Positions 4,228 through 64,000 of a DNA stretch of 64,000 nucleotides are shown in pieces. The number at the start of each line of letters is the position of its first letter. Within the stretch, counting starts at the first letter, position 1. The notes below the pieces were generated by a model. That model was not told the origin of the DNA. It saw only the letters and a program-made list of their open reading frames with translations, and searched no databases. Location: positions 186,001 through 250,000 of the forward strand of contig CAMDAC010000002.1 in assembly GCA_945888325.1 (NCBI GenBank), read 5' to 3'. This DNA is from Candidatus Sulfopaludibacter sp. SbA3. Its GTDB lineage: Bacteria; Pseudomonadota; Alphaproteobacteria; Caulobacterales; Hyphomonadaceae. The position numbers and the translations under genes were made by a program.

Positions 4228-5772
4228 TTACCGCGCAATCATGGACCCAGCCGCGCCGGCCGTGCTGTTCGCCGGCCGATGCCGGTAGCTCAGGGCTTCG
4301 GCCACGTGGACGCGTCGTACTCCGCCTGAGCCATCGAGATCCGCAATTGTACGGGCCACTTTCAGAACGCGGGTATAGCCCCGCGCGGTCAGCGACAGCT
4401 TGGCCGCGGCATCCGACAGAAGCGCTGCGCCGGGGCCATCCGGGAGAGCGAACTGATCAATTGCGCCGGGCGGCATGTCCGCATTGACGAGGCGCCTGCC
4501 CTCCGTGCCGGCCTCAAACCGTTCGGCCTGCACTTCGCGCGCCCGGGCGACGCGGCCGCGCACTTCCGCCGTGCCCTCGGACGGCGCTGGCAGGCTGAGG
4601 TCCACCGCTGTGACGGGCGGCGTCTCGTAGAAAAGGTCGATCCGGTCAAGAAAAGGCCCAGAAATCCGGGCCTGATAGTCCTGCGCGCAGCGGGGTCCGC
4701 GCGTACAGGCGGCGGCGCCGGGCCCTCCCCCACAGCGGCAGGGGTTCATCGCCGAGATCAGCTGGAAGCGCGCAGGATAGCGCACATGCCGGTTGGCCCG
4801 CGCGATGACCGCTTCGCCCGCTTCGAGCGGCTGGCGCAGGCTGTCGAGAACCTGCCCTGAAAATTCCGGCAGCTCGTCCAGGAACAGCACGCCATGATGG
4901 GCGAGCGAGACTTCGCCCGGTTTGGCCTTGATACCGCCGCCGACAAGTGCAGCCATAGAGGCCGAATGGTGCGGCGCCCGGAAAGGTCTGGTGCGTGAAA
5001 GCTGCCCGCGCTGCAGCAGCCCGGCGACGGACTGGATCTGCGAGACTTCGAGCAATTCACGCGCCGAAAGCGGCGCCAGGAGTCCCGGCAGTCGCTGCGC
5101 CAGCATCGATTTGCCCGAGCCCGGCGGCCCGCAATAGAGAAGGTTGTGACCGCCAGCGGCGGCGATTTCGAGCACACGCTTGGCGCCTTCCTGGCCTTTC
5201 ACCTCGTTCAGGTCAGGCCCCGGCGGCGTCTCGAGCAGATCACCTTTCTTCGGCGGGCCCAGCACGCTTCTACCCGCGAAGTGATTGATCAGTGCGATCA
5301 GGCTCAGCGCCGGCAGCACACCGCCGCCCGCCCAGGCGGCTTCGGCGCCGCAGGCTTCCGGACAGATCAGGCTGAGCCCCATGGCCTCGGCCGCCATCGC
5401 CGCGGGCAACACGCCGGCCGTTTCAACCAGCCGTCCATCCAGCGACAGCTCTCCAATGGCCGCGTATCTGGACAACTGGTCTTCCGGCAGCACACCCAGC
5501 TTGGCCAGCATGGCGAGCGCAATGGCGAGATCATAATGGCTGCCTTCCTTCGGAAGGTCCGCCGGCGCGAGGTTCACGATCACCCGCTTGGACGGCAGGG
5601 TCAGCCCCAGCGCGGCGAAAGCGGCGCGTACGCGTTCCCGGCTTTCCCCCACCGCCTTGTCCGGCAGGCCGACGACCATGAAGGTCACCTGTCCGCCCGC
5701 AAGCTGGACCTGGACATCGACCGGCTGTGCTTCAACGCCGTCGAAAGCAAAAGTGGTGATCCGCGCGACCAT
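4228..5772 (-). CDS. comM: YifB/ComM family Mg-chelatase-like AAA ATPase
   Basis: MVARITTFAFDGVEAQPVDVQVQLAGG, Walker A CGPPGSGKSMLAQRLPGLL, FLDELPEF, AMNPCRCG. Confidence 0.95.
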   Translation of the reverse strand: MVARITTFAFDGVEAQPVDVQVQLAGGQVTFMVVGLPDKAVGESRERVRAAFAALGLTLPSKRVIVNLAPADLPKEGSHYDLAIALAMLAKLGVLPEDQLSRYAAIGELSLDGRLVETAGVLPAAMAAEAMGLSLICPEACGAEAAWAGGGVLPALSLIALINHFAGRSVLGPPKKGDLLETPPGPDLNEVKGQEGAKRVLEIAAAGGHNLLYCGPPGSGKSMLAQRLPGLLAPLSARELLEVSQIQSVAGLLQRGQLSRTRPFRAPHHSASMAALVGGGIKAKPGEVSLAHHGVLFLDELPEFSGQVLDSLRQPLEAGEAVIARANRHVRYPARFQLISAMNPCRCGGGPGAAACTRGPRCAQDYQARISGPFLDRIDLFYETPPVTAVDLSLPAPSEGTAEVRGRVARAREVQAERFEAGTEGRRLVNADMPPGAIDQFALPDGPGAALLSDAAAKLSLTARGYTRVLKVARTIADLDGSGGVRRVHVAEALSYRHRPANSTAGAAGSMIAR

Positions 5773-56480: not shown

Positions 56481-57249
56481 CTGTCCTGATCCGACACGGC
56501 TGAGACGACGGCTGTCCGGGACAGAGCCAGGTTGGCTACACCGTCAGATTCCGGGGCCGACTGGGTCGATCTAATCGTGACATTTATCCGGCCAACCGGA
56601 AGCGGCGCCCAGTTCGCCGAAAGCGCAGACGCCGCCGGTCTGAAACGTGGCGACACCAGCTTTGTCCCTACCCACCCATTCGGATGGGACACCTATCCTT
56701 TTGCGTCGCACTCGAGACCCGCCAATGAAATGTTTCGGCACGATCGATGCTAAGTCACTGCTCAGCAGGCTGGGTGGGGATCCGGACTGCAGCATGGATC
56801 CGGTGTCAGGGGACGGCATTGGGTCCATGCGTCCACAATCCGACTGGCTCATCAGTTTTCAAGCAGTTCTCCGGAACGATGTATAATTCCCTCTACGGCT
56901 GAGCTGGCGGCGCGCTCGCTGCCTCTGATTATCTGTGGTCGAACGCAATTAAGGCGCTACCTCCCTTCAGACAGTAGCACTCGGGAGCAAACAAGAACGT
57001 CAACGAGACAAGTGGGGACGATCTCGAGGACGTTCTTGAGCTTCAGAAGTCGCTTGGGTAGGGGACGCACGACTTCGCTCACCACCATTTTATGGTTGAG
57101 CGACGCTGCCAATATATCCGTATGCATAGGTCATGGCCTACTCCCGGCAAACTGAATTGAGCCTCTCAACACCCACGAAAAGCGCGCTGCGCGTAGGCTG
57201 GCTAAAGACAGCGCCAATCCCGGAATTCTGTTTGTTTTCTGTGGTGTAA

Positions 57250-57296
57250 TGGTGGGCGGTACAAGGTTCGAACTTGTGACCCCTACGATGTCAACG
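57250..57296 (-). other. tRNA-Val(GAC) 3' half fragment (att-like)
   Basis: Minus strand CGTTGACATCGTAGGGGTCACAAGTTCGAACCTTGTACCGCCCACCA: anticodon loop, T-arm ACAAG-TTCGAAC-CTTGT, acceptor ACCGCCC-A-CCA; no matching 5' half (GGGCGGT) adjacent. Confidence 0.75.
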
Positions 57297-57479: not shown

Positions 57480-57629
57480 ATGGGACGCAAGGCCAGCGGC
57501 ACAAGTATCGAAATCCGGCCCGGCCTCTACCTCAAATCTCACGACGGACTTCTGCACTGCTACTTCCGCATTGAGGGACGTGCGTTCAGGCGCAACACGC
57601 GCAACGATGAAATTGCCGAAGCGCCGCCC
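57480..57629 (+). pseudogene. probable N-terminal fragment of a tyrosine recombinase
   Basis: MGRKASGTSIEIRPGLYLKSHDGLLHCYFRIEGRAFRRNTRNDEIAEA resembles the integrase N-terminal arm-binding region; then runs into the 3' end of the MCP gene. Confidence 0.5.
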
Positions 57630-57660: not shown

Positions 57661-60492
57661 TCAGAAATCCTTCCAGCCGTCTGTTGCCTTTAGGCGCGCC
57701 GATCCTTGGGTTGCGAATCGAGCCACGCGCTGGCGTTGCTGATGAACCGGCGTTTCCGGTGCTGCCGTTACTGTTCGCTTAGGTGCTGCCCGATCCAACT
57801 CAGCGCCAGTCTGGAACCTAGCAGTCAGTTCTGTCAGCTCCGCAGCCTCGCGCTTCAAATGATGGCTGGCAGCGGTTGCTTCCTCGACCATAGCGGCGTT
57901 CTGCTGAGTGACCTGGTCCATCTGGTTGATTGCCGTGTTAATTTCTCCTAACCCGGCGGACTGTTCCTGCGAGGCAACAGTGATCTCGCCGACAAGGGTC
58001 GATATCTCACCCACTTTGCCAGCAATCATGTTGAGTGCGGCGCCGGCTTTTCCGACGAGGTCAACGCCGGTGTCAACATGCTGCGAGCTGATCGCGATCA
58101 GTTCCTTGATCTCTTTCGCGGCTTCCGAAGAGCGGTGTGCAAGAGCGCGGACTTCTGACGCGACAACGGCGAAGCCACGCCCGGCATCTCCGGCACGGGC
58201 TGCCTCCACGCCAGCATTCAGAGCCAATAGGTTGGTCTGGAACGAGATTTCATGAATTACGCCCAGGATCTGCGATATCTGCCTCGAGGAGGCATTGATT
58301 GAAGCCATCGCAGCCACCGCACCATTGACGACTTGACGCGACTCTTCGGCATCGGAGCAAGCAACCGAGACGATGACGTTTGCCTGCTTGGCATTGTCAG
58401 CGGCTTTTTGCACGGTTGCCGTGATCTGATCGAGCGCGGCGGCCGTTTCTTCGAGGCTGGCCGCCTGTTGCTCAGTTCTCCTTGAAAGATCGTCCGCCGC
58501 CTGACTGATTTCGCTGGCGCCAGAGCTGATACCATGGGCATTCGCCGCAATGCTTCGCATGGCTTCCTGCAACTCATCCATTGCGTTGTTAAAGTCGCGA
58601 CGGAGGGTCTCATACTGGCCCGGAAACGGCTCTGTGATACGTGCCTTGAGATTGCCAGCCGCGAGGTCAGACAGACCACGGGCGAGGCCCGAGACGACCT
58701 TTTCCTGTGCGGCGGCGTTTGCTTGCTGCTCAGATGATTCTGCAGCGCGCCGATCATGTTCGACCTGCGTTATGTCGGTCGCAAACTTGACGACCTTTAG
58801 CGGATTGCCGCGCAAGTCCAGAACAAGGTTATAGCTTGCTTCAAACCAGACCTCTCGGCCGCCTTTAGAGAGATGCATGAATTTTCCAGAGACATGTTCA
58901 CCGAGATTCAGGCGCTCCCAGAGCGCTCGGTACTCAGCCGTCGCAGAGTTTCCCGGAGCGACAAACATCGAGTGGTGCTGTCCCGAAATTTCGTTGACCG
59001 TGTAGCCCATCGTTGCAAGGAAGTTTTCGTTTGCCGTGAGGATCGTGCCATCAAGCTTGAACTCGACCACTGCCTGAGCGCGTTGGATCGCGTCAATTTT
59101 GGCAGACTGTTCATTGGCTTGCAGCTCTGCTGCCGTGATGTCAGCCGCAATCTGCAAAACCCTCACGACACGGCCGTTCTTGTCGATGATCGGATTATAG
59201 GAAGCCTGGAACCAGATTTCTCCGCCTCCCCTGCCCAGGAACATGAACTTCCCTGAAACGGGTTCTCCCCGGTTCAGAAGGCTCCAAATATCGTTCGTCT
59301 CGGGGCCTCTTGCATCCTCAGCCGAGAGGAACATCGCGTGACGCTTCCCGACCACCTCGTTAAGCGAATAACCCATCAGTCGAAGGAAGTTCTCATTCGC
59401 CGTCATCAGCGTACCGTCTGGCTGATATTCAACAACAGCCTGAGCAACGGAGATCGCTTTCACATAGCCCGCCGGACCGAGCATCGCCAGTTCGGCTTGC
59501 TCCGCATCGCGCAGGATCCTTTGGTTGACGTCGTCTCGAAGGAAGCTGAGCGTCTTGGCGATCACACCCGTTTCATTCTTGTCATCCGTGTAGGGAATTT
59601 CTGATCTGAAATCGCCCGAACGCAACTTGTCCATGCTGGAAGTCAGTTTCTTGAAGCGACCAGCCAATCCTGTCGATACATACCAGGCGAGCGCACAGGC
59701 AATTGCCAACAAAAGGCCCACGACCAAGAGCTGACCCTCTAGCCTCGAACGAAGCCCGTCAATCCGGATATTGAGCAAGCGTTCGAGCTCAACGGCAGTT
59801 TCCTTCCAGCTTTCGTCCAAGACGGCTTCGAACCTGTCGGTATCTGCGCCGTATTCGCCGCTTGAAGCTGAATTCAAGAGAACCGAGACTTCCCGGTCAA
59901 TGGCAGCCATCGGTTCTTCAAGCGCCGCGCGGGTTTCGCCCGAAGCATTGCTTTTGATTGAGGCTCCTATGGATGAAACCGCAGCACCAGCAGCCGCACG
60001 CAGGTTTTCGCCGGCAATTTTGACCTCCAAATCGCGATCATTTGTTTCGCTCTGGGCCCGAAGCATTGCTTCGAACTCGCGTGCAGCTTTCAGCGTCGCC
60101 GGAATGCGAACTGTGACCGCATCCATGGCATAGAAGCTATCGAGTTCAGGATCGAGAGTCAGGTTTGAGCCATCGGCGACCTGTTGGATAAGCTTCAGCC
60201 CCGCAGAAACTTGCTCAGGACCAGCAGTAGATCTTTTCAGCGCTTCCGCGGCCGCGCCTGCGCCAAAGGATGCTTCTGCTGTTGCGGCGTCAACAGAGCC
60301 GCCTTCAAGAGTGGCTGGCCAAGCGTCTTGCAGAAAGTGCACGCCCGCTCGCTCTTTCTCTGAAAATCGAAGCTCGCGGTCGGCCTGCATGACAAGGAGC
60401 GCTGTCGGGAAGATGGCAGAAGCGATAAACAAAACTGATATCAGTGCGAGGCGGGCCGCAAGCGAAAAGCGGCTATTCAATAGGTCGAGCAT
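57661..60492 (-). CDS. methyl-accepting chemotaxis protein (TM sensor-HAMP-PAS-PAS-MA)
   Basis: TMs [20 protein letters not shown] and [22 protein letters not shown], two PAS repeats, MA tip [41 protein letters not shown]-terminus DGWKDF. Confidence 0.94.
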
Positions 60493-60813
60493 GCTTAAGT
60501 CCTGGCACAAGAGCAGATTGGTTTCTGGTAGCACCTGTTGATTAATATGCAGTGACATTCGCGGGTGAACCGCGCGGGGTTTGCCGGAGGCCATTTTCTT
60601 TGGAAGCGTGGACCTATGACAGAGAAGAAGCAAAGACCAAATTATTCGCACAGACCAAAAAACGCTGGGTCAAAGGCGCCAACGGCGAGCGCGTTAAAAG
60701 AGAAGCGAAGCCCTGAGCTCACTTGTGGCACTGGGCATGCTGTTTGCTAACCAACCACGCGAACTTCCTGTTTTGGGACCGATACGGGTCCCGCGCCAAT
60801 CGGAGACGGACCT

Positions 60814-61212
60814 GTGACTGATGAAACTGACCTGCGCATAGGCAAGCGTCTATACCACCGCCGCCGTCTGCTGGGCATGACGCAGAAAGAACTGGGCAAC
60901 CAGGTGGGCGTGCGCTTCCAGCAAATCCAGAAGTACGAGTGCGGCGCAAACCGCATCACCGCCTCCCGCCTGTTCGACCTTTCCCGGGCCCTGAACGTGT
61001 CGGTGCAATACTTCTTCGACGGCATGGCCGTCGCCAACCCGATGCCGAAAGCCGCCAACGACGCCGAGCAGATGGATGGCGACATCCTTTCGCAAAAAGA
61101 GACGCTGGAACTGGTGCGCGCTTACTACCACCTCGGCGAACGCCCCCGCAAACGTCTCCTCGAGTTGGCGAAAGCCTTTGAAGGCGATAGCGTTAGCCCC
61201 CGCGCTGCTTAA
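60814..61212 (+). CDS. XRE-family helix-turn-helix transcriptional regulator
   Basis: GKRLYHRRRLLGMTQKELGNQVGVRFQQIQKYECGANRITASRLFDLSRALNVSVQYFFDG. Confidence 0.93.
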   Translation: MTDETDLRIGKRLYHRRRLLGMTQKELGNQVGVRFQQIQKYECGANRITASRLFDLSRALNVSVQYFFDGMAVANPMPKAANDAEQMDGDILSQKETLELVRAYYHLGERPRKRLLELAKAFEGDSVSPRAA

Positions 61213-62117: not shown

Positions 62118-63971
62118 CTAGTTGCCTTCGGCTGCTAGCGCCCTGCAGCGCTCTAAAACTAATCCCATAACCTTTTCCTTTGTGGCCCGAGCGGCTTCTG
62201 CCTCTATGGCAATTTCAGGCAGCTGAATCGTTTGCGCCCGTTCGGGCACGCGCGCTGTAAGTTCTGCGATCGCCGCCTCAGCACCTTCGGCCGGCAGGCC
62301 GATTGTCCGCGCCAGAGCCAGGAAGTCCTGGTGCGTCAGGCGGTCATCCTTGCCGTTAAGTTTGAGCGCCATGCGATCGCCCCCCAAACCCGGGAAGACA
62401 CGCGTCGTGACAGCGTCGTAGAGCGGCGCGAAGCGCACGCTCGTGAAAGTCTTGTCACCCACGTCGGCCACTTTGAGCAAGGCAAGATTCTTGAGGTGCA
62501 TATCGCCATCGGCGATGAGCCAGGCGAACACGGCGCGGCGGAACAGGATATCGAGATCGCTGGCCGGATCAGTCGACAGTGGTCGCAGCCCGCGAGCCAA
62601 CCGCTCTATTGTTCCATCGTATTTGGCCGACGCGGGAAGGTCCAGAATGGAGCAGAAATCTTCCATCGCCAATCGCCGTTGATCTTCTGGTCCACGACGA
62701 ATGTCGAACCGTTCGATGACCAGCGCTGGCGACATGCCGTCGGGCATCTTAAGTAGCGCGGCACCCGGCACTTCAAATCCCGCCGAGCGACCAAGCTCAA
62801 GACAAAGCCACTCAACAATTGGCAACGTCTCGAAGCCTGCGGTGCCTGCCGGCTTGAGGATATGTGTGAACGGCTGATTTATGGCCGGAACGAGTGCGCC
62901 ATCGGGCATCAAACTCATTGGGGCTTTGATCTGGACGCCCGACAGGCGCGGGGTTTCTGCGCGCGCAAAAATTCGTGCCAGGTTCTGCTCGAAGGTCTCC
63001 TCAATCTCACCCCGCGACGGACCGGTGTAGCGTCCCGTGAAGCGACCTGCGTCGATGTATCCAGCCAGTGTTGTCGTCAGAGTATCGGCAGGCAGCGCCG
63101 CCAGTTCCTCTCGATCCTCGGCGATGCCTATGTTCGACATATACCGGCGTCCGCGCCGGAGCGCCTCGCGTTCATCGCGATCGCGGAGAACCTGTGCCAG
63201 CCAGCCCTCGGGCAGTAGCGATTCAATGAAAGCCGGAAGCTTGCCCGGCATGGTCTCGCGAACCAAGGCCGGTCCCGCCCGGCGCCGCGGCTTCCAACGC
63301 CATTCGTATCCGTCGTGAGTCAGCCGGCCTTGAGGTTCGCCGTGCCAGGCGACGATGAGATCAAGCGCAGCCTTGTTGACCGGCACCTTTGCAGCTCCTG
63401 GCTGGGCCAGCAGGAAGCGTTCAGCGCCCTCCCCTTCGCGGTACCATTCATTTTCGCGCGCCAGGACCCAGACGGCGTCGGCCGCAGCTTGGGGGTCCCC
63501 ATATTCTTCCACCAGGCGCGCCGCCATCTGCGCGCGCATCTCCGCCGTGACAGCGCTCGCATGTTCGCTGCGCAGGCGGAACGCTTCGAGAAATCGGTGG
63601 CGCGGCGAGGAGGCCTCGATACGCAACTCGCCCATTTCGTCGCCGATGACGGCGATCGCCGTCGATGGATGTTTCGGCGCTTGGTTCTGGATGATCTCGA
63701 ACGTTCGTAGCCGCGTACGCTGGTTGCGGCGGCCGCTGATGAACAGCCTGCCATCGGGCGTCGGCGCGAGCAGCACCGCGCTCGCCGACGACAGAAAAGC
63801 GTTGGGATAGAGATAGTGCGCAATACGGACGGCATGGCCGAGGATCGCCGCCTCGATGTTCCCTTGGTCATCGACGTAAACCCCGCGCACGAGCTGTATC
63901 AACTCACCGGCCTGCGCGCGCTGATGCGCGCGTTTGGCGTCAATCGTTTCGCCGACCAAATGAAGTGCCAT
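62118..63971 (-). CDS. HipA-family Ser/Thr kinase with AbiEi-like N-terminal extension
   Basis: Kinase motifs LSGVQIKAPMSL, VIERFDI, WLIADGDMHLKNLALL; about 190 aa N-terminal region with GELIQLVRGVYVDD..YPNAFLSSASAVLLAPTPDGRLFISGRRNQRTRLR. Confidence 0.8.
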   Translation of the reverse strand: MALHLVGETIDAKRAHQRAQAGELIQLVRGVYVDDQGNIEAAILGHAVRIAHYLYPNAFLSSASAVLLAPTPDGRLFISGRRNQRTRLRTFEIIQNQAPKHPSTAIAVIGDEMGELRIEASSPRHRFLEAFRLRSEHASAVTAEMRAQMAARLVEEYGDPQAAADAVWVLARENEWYREGEGAERFLLAQPGAAKVPVNKAALDLIVAWHGEPQGRLTHDGYEWRWKPRRRAGPALVRETMPGKLPAFIESLLPEGWLAQVLRDRDEREALRRGRRYMSNIGIAEDREELAALPADTLTTTLAGYIDAGRFTGRYTGPSRGEIEETFEQNLARIFARAETPRLSGVQIKAPMSLMPDGALVPAINQPFTHILKPAGTAGFETLPIVEWLCLELGRSAGFEVPGAALLKMPDGMSPALVIERFDIRRGPEDQRRLAMEDFCSILDLPASAKYDGTIERLARGLRPLSTDPASDLDILFRRAVFAWLIADGDMHLKNLALLKVADVGDKTFTSVRFAPLYDAVTTRVFPGLGGDRMALKLNGKDDRLTHQDFLALARTIGLPAEGAEAAIAELTARVPERAQTIQLPEIAIEAEAARATKEKVMGLVLERCRALAAEGN

Positions 63972-64000
63972 GGAATTATCTCGCATCTCAGATGCGCGTT

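Follow-up and report, generated by a model that had tools for sequence, protein, structure and literature searches.

Kinases of the HipA type govern dormancy and tolerance to antibiotics, and a separate antitoxin normally keeps them in check. The locus described here raises the question of how such a kinase is controlled when no partner gene adjoins it and its polypeptide carries an additional N-terminal domain. The hipA-family gene occupies positions 62118..63971 on the minus strand of the window (the whole 64,000-nucleotide stretch of DNA that was analysed) and was delimited by its open reading frame, its HipA_C match and its relatives. An earlier note, made from the sequence alone, had described it as a 617-aa HipA kinase with an AbiEi-type N-terminal domain of ~190 aa. 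The 617-aa reading frame lies at the coordinates given there, and the quoted motifs LSGVQIK, ERFDI, ADGDMHLKN, AGELIQLVRGVYVDD and GRLFISGRRNQRTRLR are all present in its translation. The longest open reading frame comprises 622 aa and begins with an ATG at 63986. The start at 63971 appears the better choice, because the five extra codons sit within a conserved palindromic operator and because the inner ATG is absent from some relatives.

Judged by its motifs, the C-terminal HipA module is predicted to be an intact kinase, with all features of the HipA family in place: HipA_C, the Gly-rich loop, the catalytic DxHxxN and the metal-binding D. The HipA_C core spans residues 343-577 (62241..62945, minus strand; PF07804, E = 2.9e-43). 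The Gly-rich loop TPRLSGVQIK was located at residues 340-349 (62925..62954, minus strand) by alignment with HipA and HipT, and the catalytic loop DGDMHLKN, a motif kept among relatives, at residues 488-495 (62487..62510, minus strand). A region resembling the HipA N-subdomain precedes the core (residues 200-340; 62952..63374, minus strand); it gave a weak Couple_hipA match, and HipA structures align with the model there. By sequence, the kinase core is nearest to HipT of Legionella, followed by E. coli HipA. The full-length AlphaFold model (pLDDT 83) matched HipA structures over ~460 columns in Foldseek and, separately, the AbiEi antitoxin 6y8q, which points to a complete HipA-type module preceded by an additional domain. 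Ser344 is invariant and corresponds to HipT Ser59. Arg342 occupies the position of HipA Ser150 throughout the family, so HipA-type self-inactivation via Ser150 phosphorylation would be unavailable, which would leave more of the control to the N-terminal domain, hereafter the head.

The AbiEi-like head covers residues 1-190 (63402..63971, minus strand) and combines a trimmed winged helix-turn-helix (wHTH) with a beta/helical domain of the AbiEi C-terminal type. Its likeness to AbiEi was not visible in Pfam, where the head gave sub-threshold noise only, and a sequence search of the PDB with the head profile returned nothing useful, so structure was needed to establish the link. Modelled alone with AlphaFold, the head reached a pLDDT of 90, and its top PDB match in Foldseek was 6y8q, the S. 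agalactiae AbiEi antitoxin (E = 2.3e-5, probability 1.00, 198 columns). In hhalign, the head profile aligned with stand-alone AbiEi of the same order over 146 collinear columns with a score of 42.7, against a best score of 24.3 from 40 column shuffles; with a second, AbiEi_4-type set (A6) it aligned over only 37 columns. PADLOC AbiEi profiles matched 48 of 53 family members (best E = 2e-5), the single-sequence match being weak (E = 0.044). The hhalign, Foldseek and PADLOC results thus agree on the AbiEi-type half of the architecture proposed earlier, as does the HipA_C match on the kinase half.

The winged helix of AbiEi has the order H1-S1-H2-H3-wing (PMC3985639). In the model of the head, the equivalent of H3, the putative DNA-recognition helix 12-20 (63912..63938, minus strand), is kept together with the wing strands at residues 24-34 (ELIQLVRGVYV; 63870..63902, minus strand), which hhalign aligned to the AbiEi wing, while H1 and H2 are missing. 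A mis-called start does not account for this loss, because operators directly precede the start codon in relatives. The earlier expectation of an N-terminal wHTH/AbiEi fold was therefore borne out as to the AbiEi fold but not as to a complete wHTH, and sequence comparison and modelling together indicate an AbiEi-type fold overall with a trimmed winged helix. Any DNA binding would have to be performed by this reduced fold. That the fusion itself is a product of chance or annotation, an ordinary HipA with an overlong, misread start, would agree with Pfam seeing HipA_C only. This idea is refuted by conservation and retains a negligible probability: the head keeps ~60% or more identity across relatives, with ~50 of 198 positions invariant, is confidently folded in the model and is directly preceded by conserved operators.

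Upstream of the kinase gene lie the operators and then an intact tRNA-Val(gac) gene at 64321-64395 (L004:6322-6396), beyond the window. Neither side of the kinase gene has a HipB-like neighbour, even when the sequence past 64000 is taken into account, which extends the earlier statement that a HipB partner is absent. A DUF1814/AbiEii nucleotidyltransferase neighbour was likewise found neither here nor beside ten annotated plasmid relatives. A perfect 49-bp copy of the 3' half of tRNA-Val(gac) stands at 57248..57296 (minus strand), and this repeat bounds an island of ~7 kb that contains a PAS/MCP chemoreceptor gene (57661-60651), an XRE gene and the kinase gene. A genome of the same genus shares these chromosomal flanks but carries different content at the tRNA and lacks the kinase gene.

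The XRE gene of the island (60814-61212) was considered as HipB and rejected: it is convergent and ~0.9 kb away, and it has an 83%-identical DNA duplicate on the opposite side of the island. This gene and its HTH_3 (XRE) counterpart (L004:8233-8631), alike over 500 bp, stand on either side of the island's tRNA-Val end and are possible recombination arms. An open reading frame at 57480 looks by eye like the N-terminal remnant of an integrase; Pfam does not confirm it. Farther out, L004:11263-14628 encodes a protein of 1121 aa whose N-terminal part is a TIR domain (TIR_2/ThsB_TIR) and whose C-terminal part is long and repeat-like, a possible defence or signalling gene.

Relatives were found in 12 of 299 genomes of the order (two with remnants only), 6 of 385 of the class and 4 of 399 of the phylum. 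A GTDB scan yielded 211 loci, nearly all alphaproteobacterial among the 80 matches listed, and 70 plasmid records carry relatives at a coverage of at least 80%. The full-length relatives (n = 73) measure 611-642 aa, and all keep the fusion and the kinase motifs, the catalytic motif being present in 73 of 73. Proteins from different families share 86-91% identity over the N-terminal half, indicating recent transfer. Ten annotated plasmid copies lie in ten unrelated neighbourhoods with no adjoining HTH antitoxin partner. At several loci of the sphingomonad type, RepB/ParB-like genes precede it, belonging to an element that also has a serine recombinase; automated neighbour clustering, too noisy in GC-rich DNA, was used for this RepB/recombinase context only. 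Phage records gave a single match, distant and kinase-only, and viral contigs one full relative (L018). The family is thus patchily spread on plasmids and islands as a solitary, mobile gene, a distribution that fits a toxin-antitoxin (TA) or defence gene.

Decayed copies occur in the family (L015, L065 and L090). L065 and L090, the latter on a Jiella plasmid, are broken into open frames of 223 and 335 aa, which is consistent with a costly or selfish gene. At L164 (G065:C9, ~4922-5396), the operator region and the first 45 codons remain by a tRNA-Val fragment, the other sequence of the kinase gene being lost. Two relatives, L104 near cas9 on a Nitrobacter plasmid and L107 upstream of a TerB / ATPase / helicase operon on a Pseudosulfitobacter plasmid, have settings that hint at defence-rich regions.

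Comparison of upstream regions provided new evidence in the form of paired palindromes that flank and overlap the promoter. The proximal operator is a palindrome centred 18 bp before the ATG (63975..64000, running on to 64003), and the distal operator lies beyond the window at 64030-64058 (L004:6031-6059). Over 91 upstream regions, the two best palindromes averaged 11.8 and 10.5 of 14 matched pairs, compared with 8.7 and 7.9 of 14 after dinucleotide shuffling; 81% of the regions, versus 1.5% of the shuffles, had 10 or more of 14 pairs in both palindromes. Their centres fall at -18 and about -73, in most cases 55 bp from each other. The upstream consensus runs from the first operator through a CTTG(A/C) -35 element, 17 bp and a TGgGATTA -10 element merged with the second operator to the ATG, with the middle of the spacer unconserved. 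A sigma-70 consensus scan of the window's own copy detected no promoter, the -35 element there being weak. In its own 3.28-Mb genome, the operator motif occurs at these two sites only, with up to 3 mismatches allowed.

The outer arm of the operator falls into two classes, ATTATC (68 members) and ACTTTC (15 members), with four members unclear, the classes having been defined by inspection after the sequences were looked at. Residue 12, the first of helix 12-20, is A/S/T in 68/68 ATTATC members and K/R in 15/15 ACTTTC members. Among all 617 columns it is the sole one without error against operator class in the 83 classified sequences, and four of the best five class-tracking columns (12, 17, 18 and 20) lie within this helix. 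On a tree built from the kinase only, with the head left out, operator class changes four times, three of them with good branch support, and each change is matched at residue 12; with three to four independent changes, a sign test alone cannot reach significance. Four later-found members fit the pattern, combining K12 with ACTTTC-type proximal operators. We read this relation between helix and operator as a specificity code. Taken together, the unique paired operators and the covariation of residue 12 suggest that the head very probably represses its own gene at two matched sites, in line with the built-in DNA-binding module postulated in the earlier note.

The operators might also be bound by another regulator, with the AbiEi-like head only modulating the kinase. 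The reduced wHTH would suit such an arrangement, as would the lack of palindromes upstream of the Fic relatives described below, but we regard it as improbable, given that the sites are unique to the kinase gene in its genome, that gene and operator layout occur together in many families and plasmids and that residue 12 covaries with operator class.

The whole is best explained, with a probability of roughly 0.7, by a solitary, mobile, self-repressing Ser/Thr kinase of the HipA family that works as a one-polypeptide TA module. The AbiEi-derived head would bind the two operators through helix 12-20 and the wing and keep transcription low. The kinase, when released or overproduced, would act like HipA and HipT and phosphorylate a translation factor, thereby slowing growth. 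In place of HipB, the C-terminal, AbiEi-type portion of the head probably holds the kinase back in cis as well. The fused protein may in this way stabilise or defend mobile DNA. Toxicity of the kinase, antitoxin action of the head in cis and phage defence are what we infer; plasmid or island stabiliser, persistence factor and phage defence are the candidate functions.

Instead of a toxin, the protein could be a signalling or transcription regulator in which phosphorylation of the head itself, or of a dedicated partner, by the kinase relieves repression with no growth arrest. A solitary gene with only its own operators in the genome is compatible with this, as are the family-wide Arg342, which would preclude self-inactivation of the HipA type, and the example of E. 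coli YjjJ/HipH, also solitary, which acts on CsrA and RpmE (PMC9948734). We nevertheless consider a pure regulator unlikely, since the patchy spread on plasmids and islands and the decayed copies resemble a TA or defence gene rather than a housekeeping regulator, and YjjJ itself is toxic when overproduced.

A role as a phage-defence (abortive infection) gene, in which a phage product would free the kinase from its head or its operators, is a possibility that we advance tentatively. The HipAD/DS-6 system, a HipA kinase with a DUF3037 protein, protects against phage and needs its kinase to do so (PMC13092281, PMC12548924), which shows that defence is within the reach of a HipA-like kinase; AbiE belongs to the abortive-infection systems (PMC3985639); and the context is mobile, with the TIR-domain gene ~5 kb away. 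On the other side, no PADLOC system model fits the fused kinase.

A related AbiEi-like head is fused to a Fic domain in proteins of ~470-520 aa (L170:529-2007 and L171-L177), and in hhalign this head resembles the HipA-fused head (probability 96.5, E = 9e-10) more than it does stand-alone AbiEi. Fic fusions were found in Alphaproteobacteria, Burkholderiales and Bacteroidota plasmids, usually as solitary genes on plasmids, an example being the 'Fic family protein' of Novosphingobium pNL1. A search upstream of the Fic relatives turned up no clear pair of palindromes, so the head may do more than bind DNA. Its sharing by HipA and Fic suggests an interchangeable control module. As a conjecture, the reduced AbiEi-derived head could be a general cis-acting module joined to unrelated toxin enzymes (HipA kinase, Fic) to make one-polypeptide TA systems, with the HipA version coupling operator occupancy to kinase restraint.

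Compared with known systems, the family shares with E. coli HipBA the kinase core with its catalytic loop, the HipA fold and, very probably, autoregulation at palindromic operators. It differs in lacking HipB, with no adjacent HipB-type antitoxin gene here or in ten plasmid relatives, in having a probable repressor of AbiEi type fused N-terminally and in carrying Arg in the Gly-rich loop where HipA has Ser150. HipBST offers the nearest kinase core by sequence, and the Ser before Gly is placed as in HipT S59; unlike this family, HipBST consists of three genes with a HipS antitoxin, and HipT has no N-subdomain. HipAD/DS-6 also joins a HipA-like kinase to no HipB, but comprises two genes with a DUF3037 antitoxin. 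E. coli HipH/YjjJ is likewise a kinase of the HipA family that stands alone and is extended at its N-terminus by a DNA-binding-like region (PMC8262856), but it has 443 aa, an HTH extension of ~100 aa and a head that is not AbiEi. Outside the catalytic motif, it shows hardly any similarity to the family protein (BLAST E = 0.027), which scored 12.4 bits on the YjjJ equivalog model against a cut-off of 401.

With AbiE, a type IV TA system, the likeness spans the whole head. AbiEi is a repressor of its own promoter, acting at two repeats, and for antitoxicity the C-terminal part of AbiEi suffices (PMC3985639, PMC7319586). The enzyme of the present family is a fused kinase rather than a DUF1814 nucleotidyltransferase, its wHTH is trimmed, and its operators are each palindromic with centres ~55 bp apart, as opposed to the 23-3-23 arrangement of AbiE. 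The Fic fusions have the related head and the usually solitary plasmid-borne gene in common with the family, but a Fic enzyme replaces the kinase and paired palindromes were not seen upstream.

Gerdes et al. list ten families of Hip kinases; the solitary YjjJ/HipH with its HTH extension is among them, and no family has AbiEi. Their sampling retained kinases that have an antitoxin gene next to them (PMC8262856), so most solitary genes of the present kind would be excluded. In the open-access literature on HipA together with AbiEi, no paper appears to describe the fusion, and its members are annotated merely as 'HipA domain-containing protein'. The sequence comparisons indicate a real, uncharacterised fusion that belongs to the HipA kinase family and to a trimmed AbiEi-type fold. 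It would combine a repressor, a probable antitoxin and a kinase within a single chain that is common on plasmids and islands of Alphaproteobacteria, and the proposed code between operator and residue 12 offers a direct test of self-regulation through exchange of a single residue. If this reading is correct, the family would be a widespread one-gene TA version that surveys requiring a partner gene have skipped.
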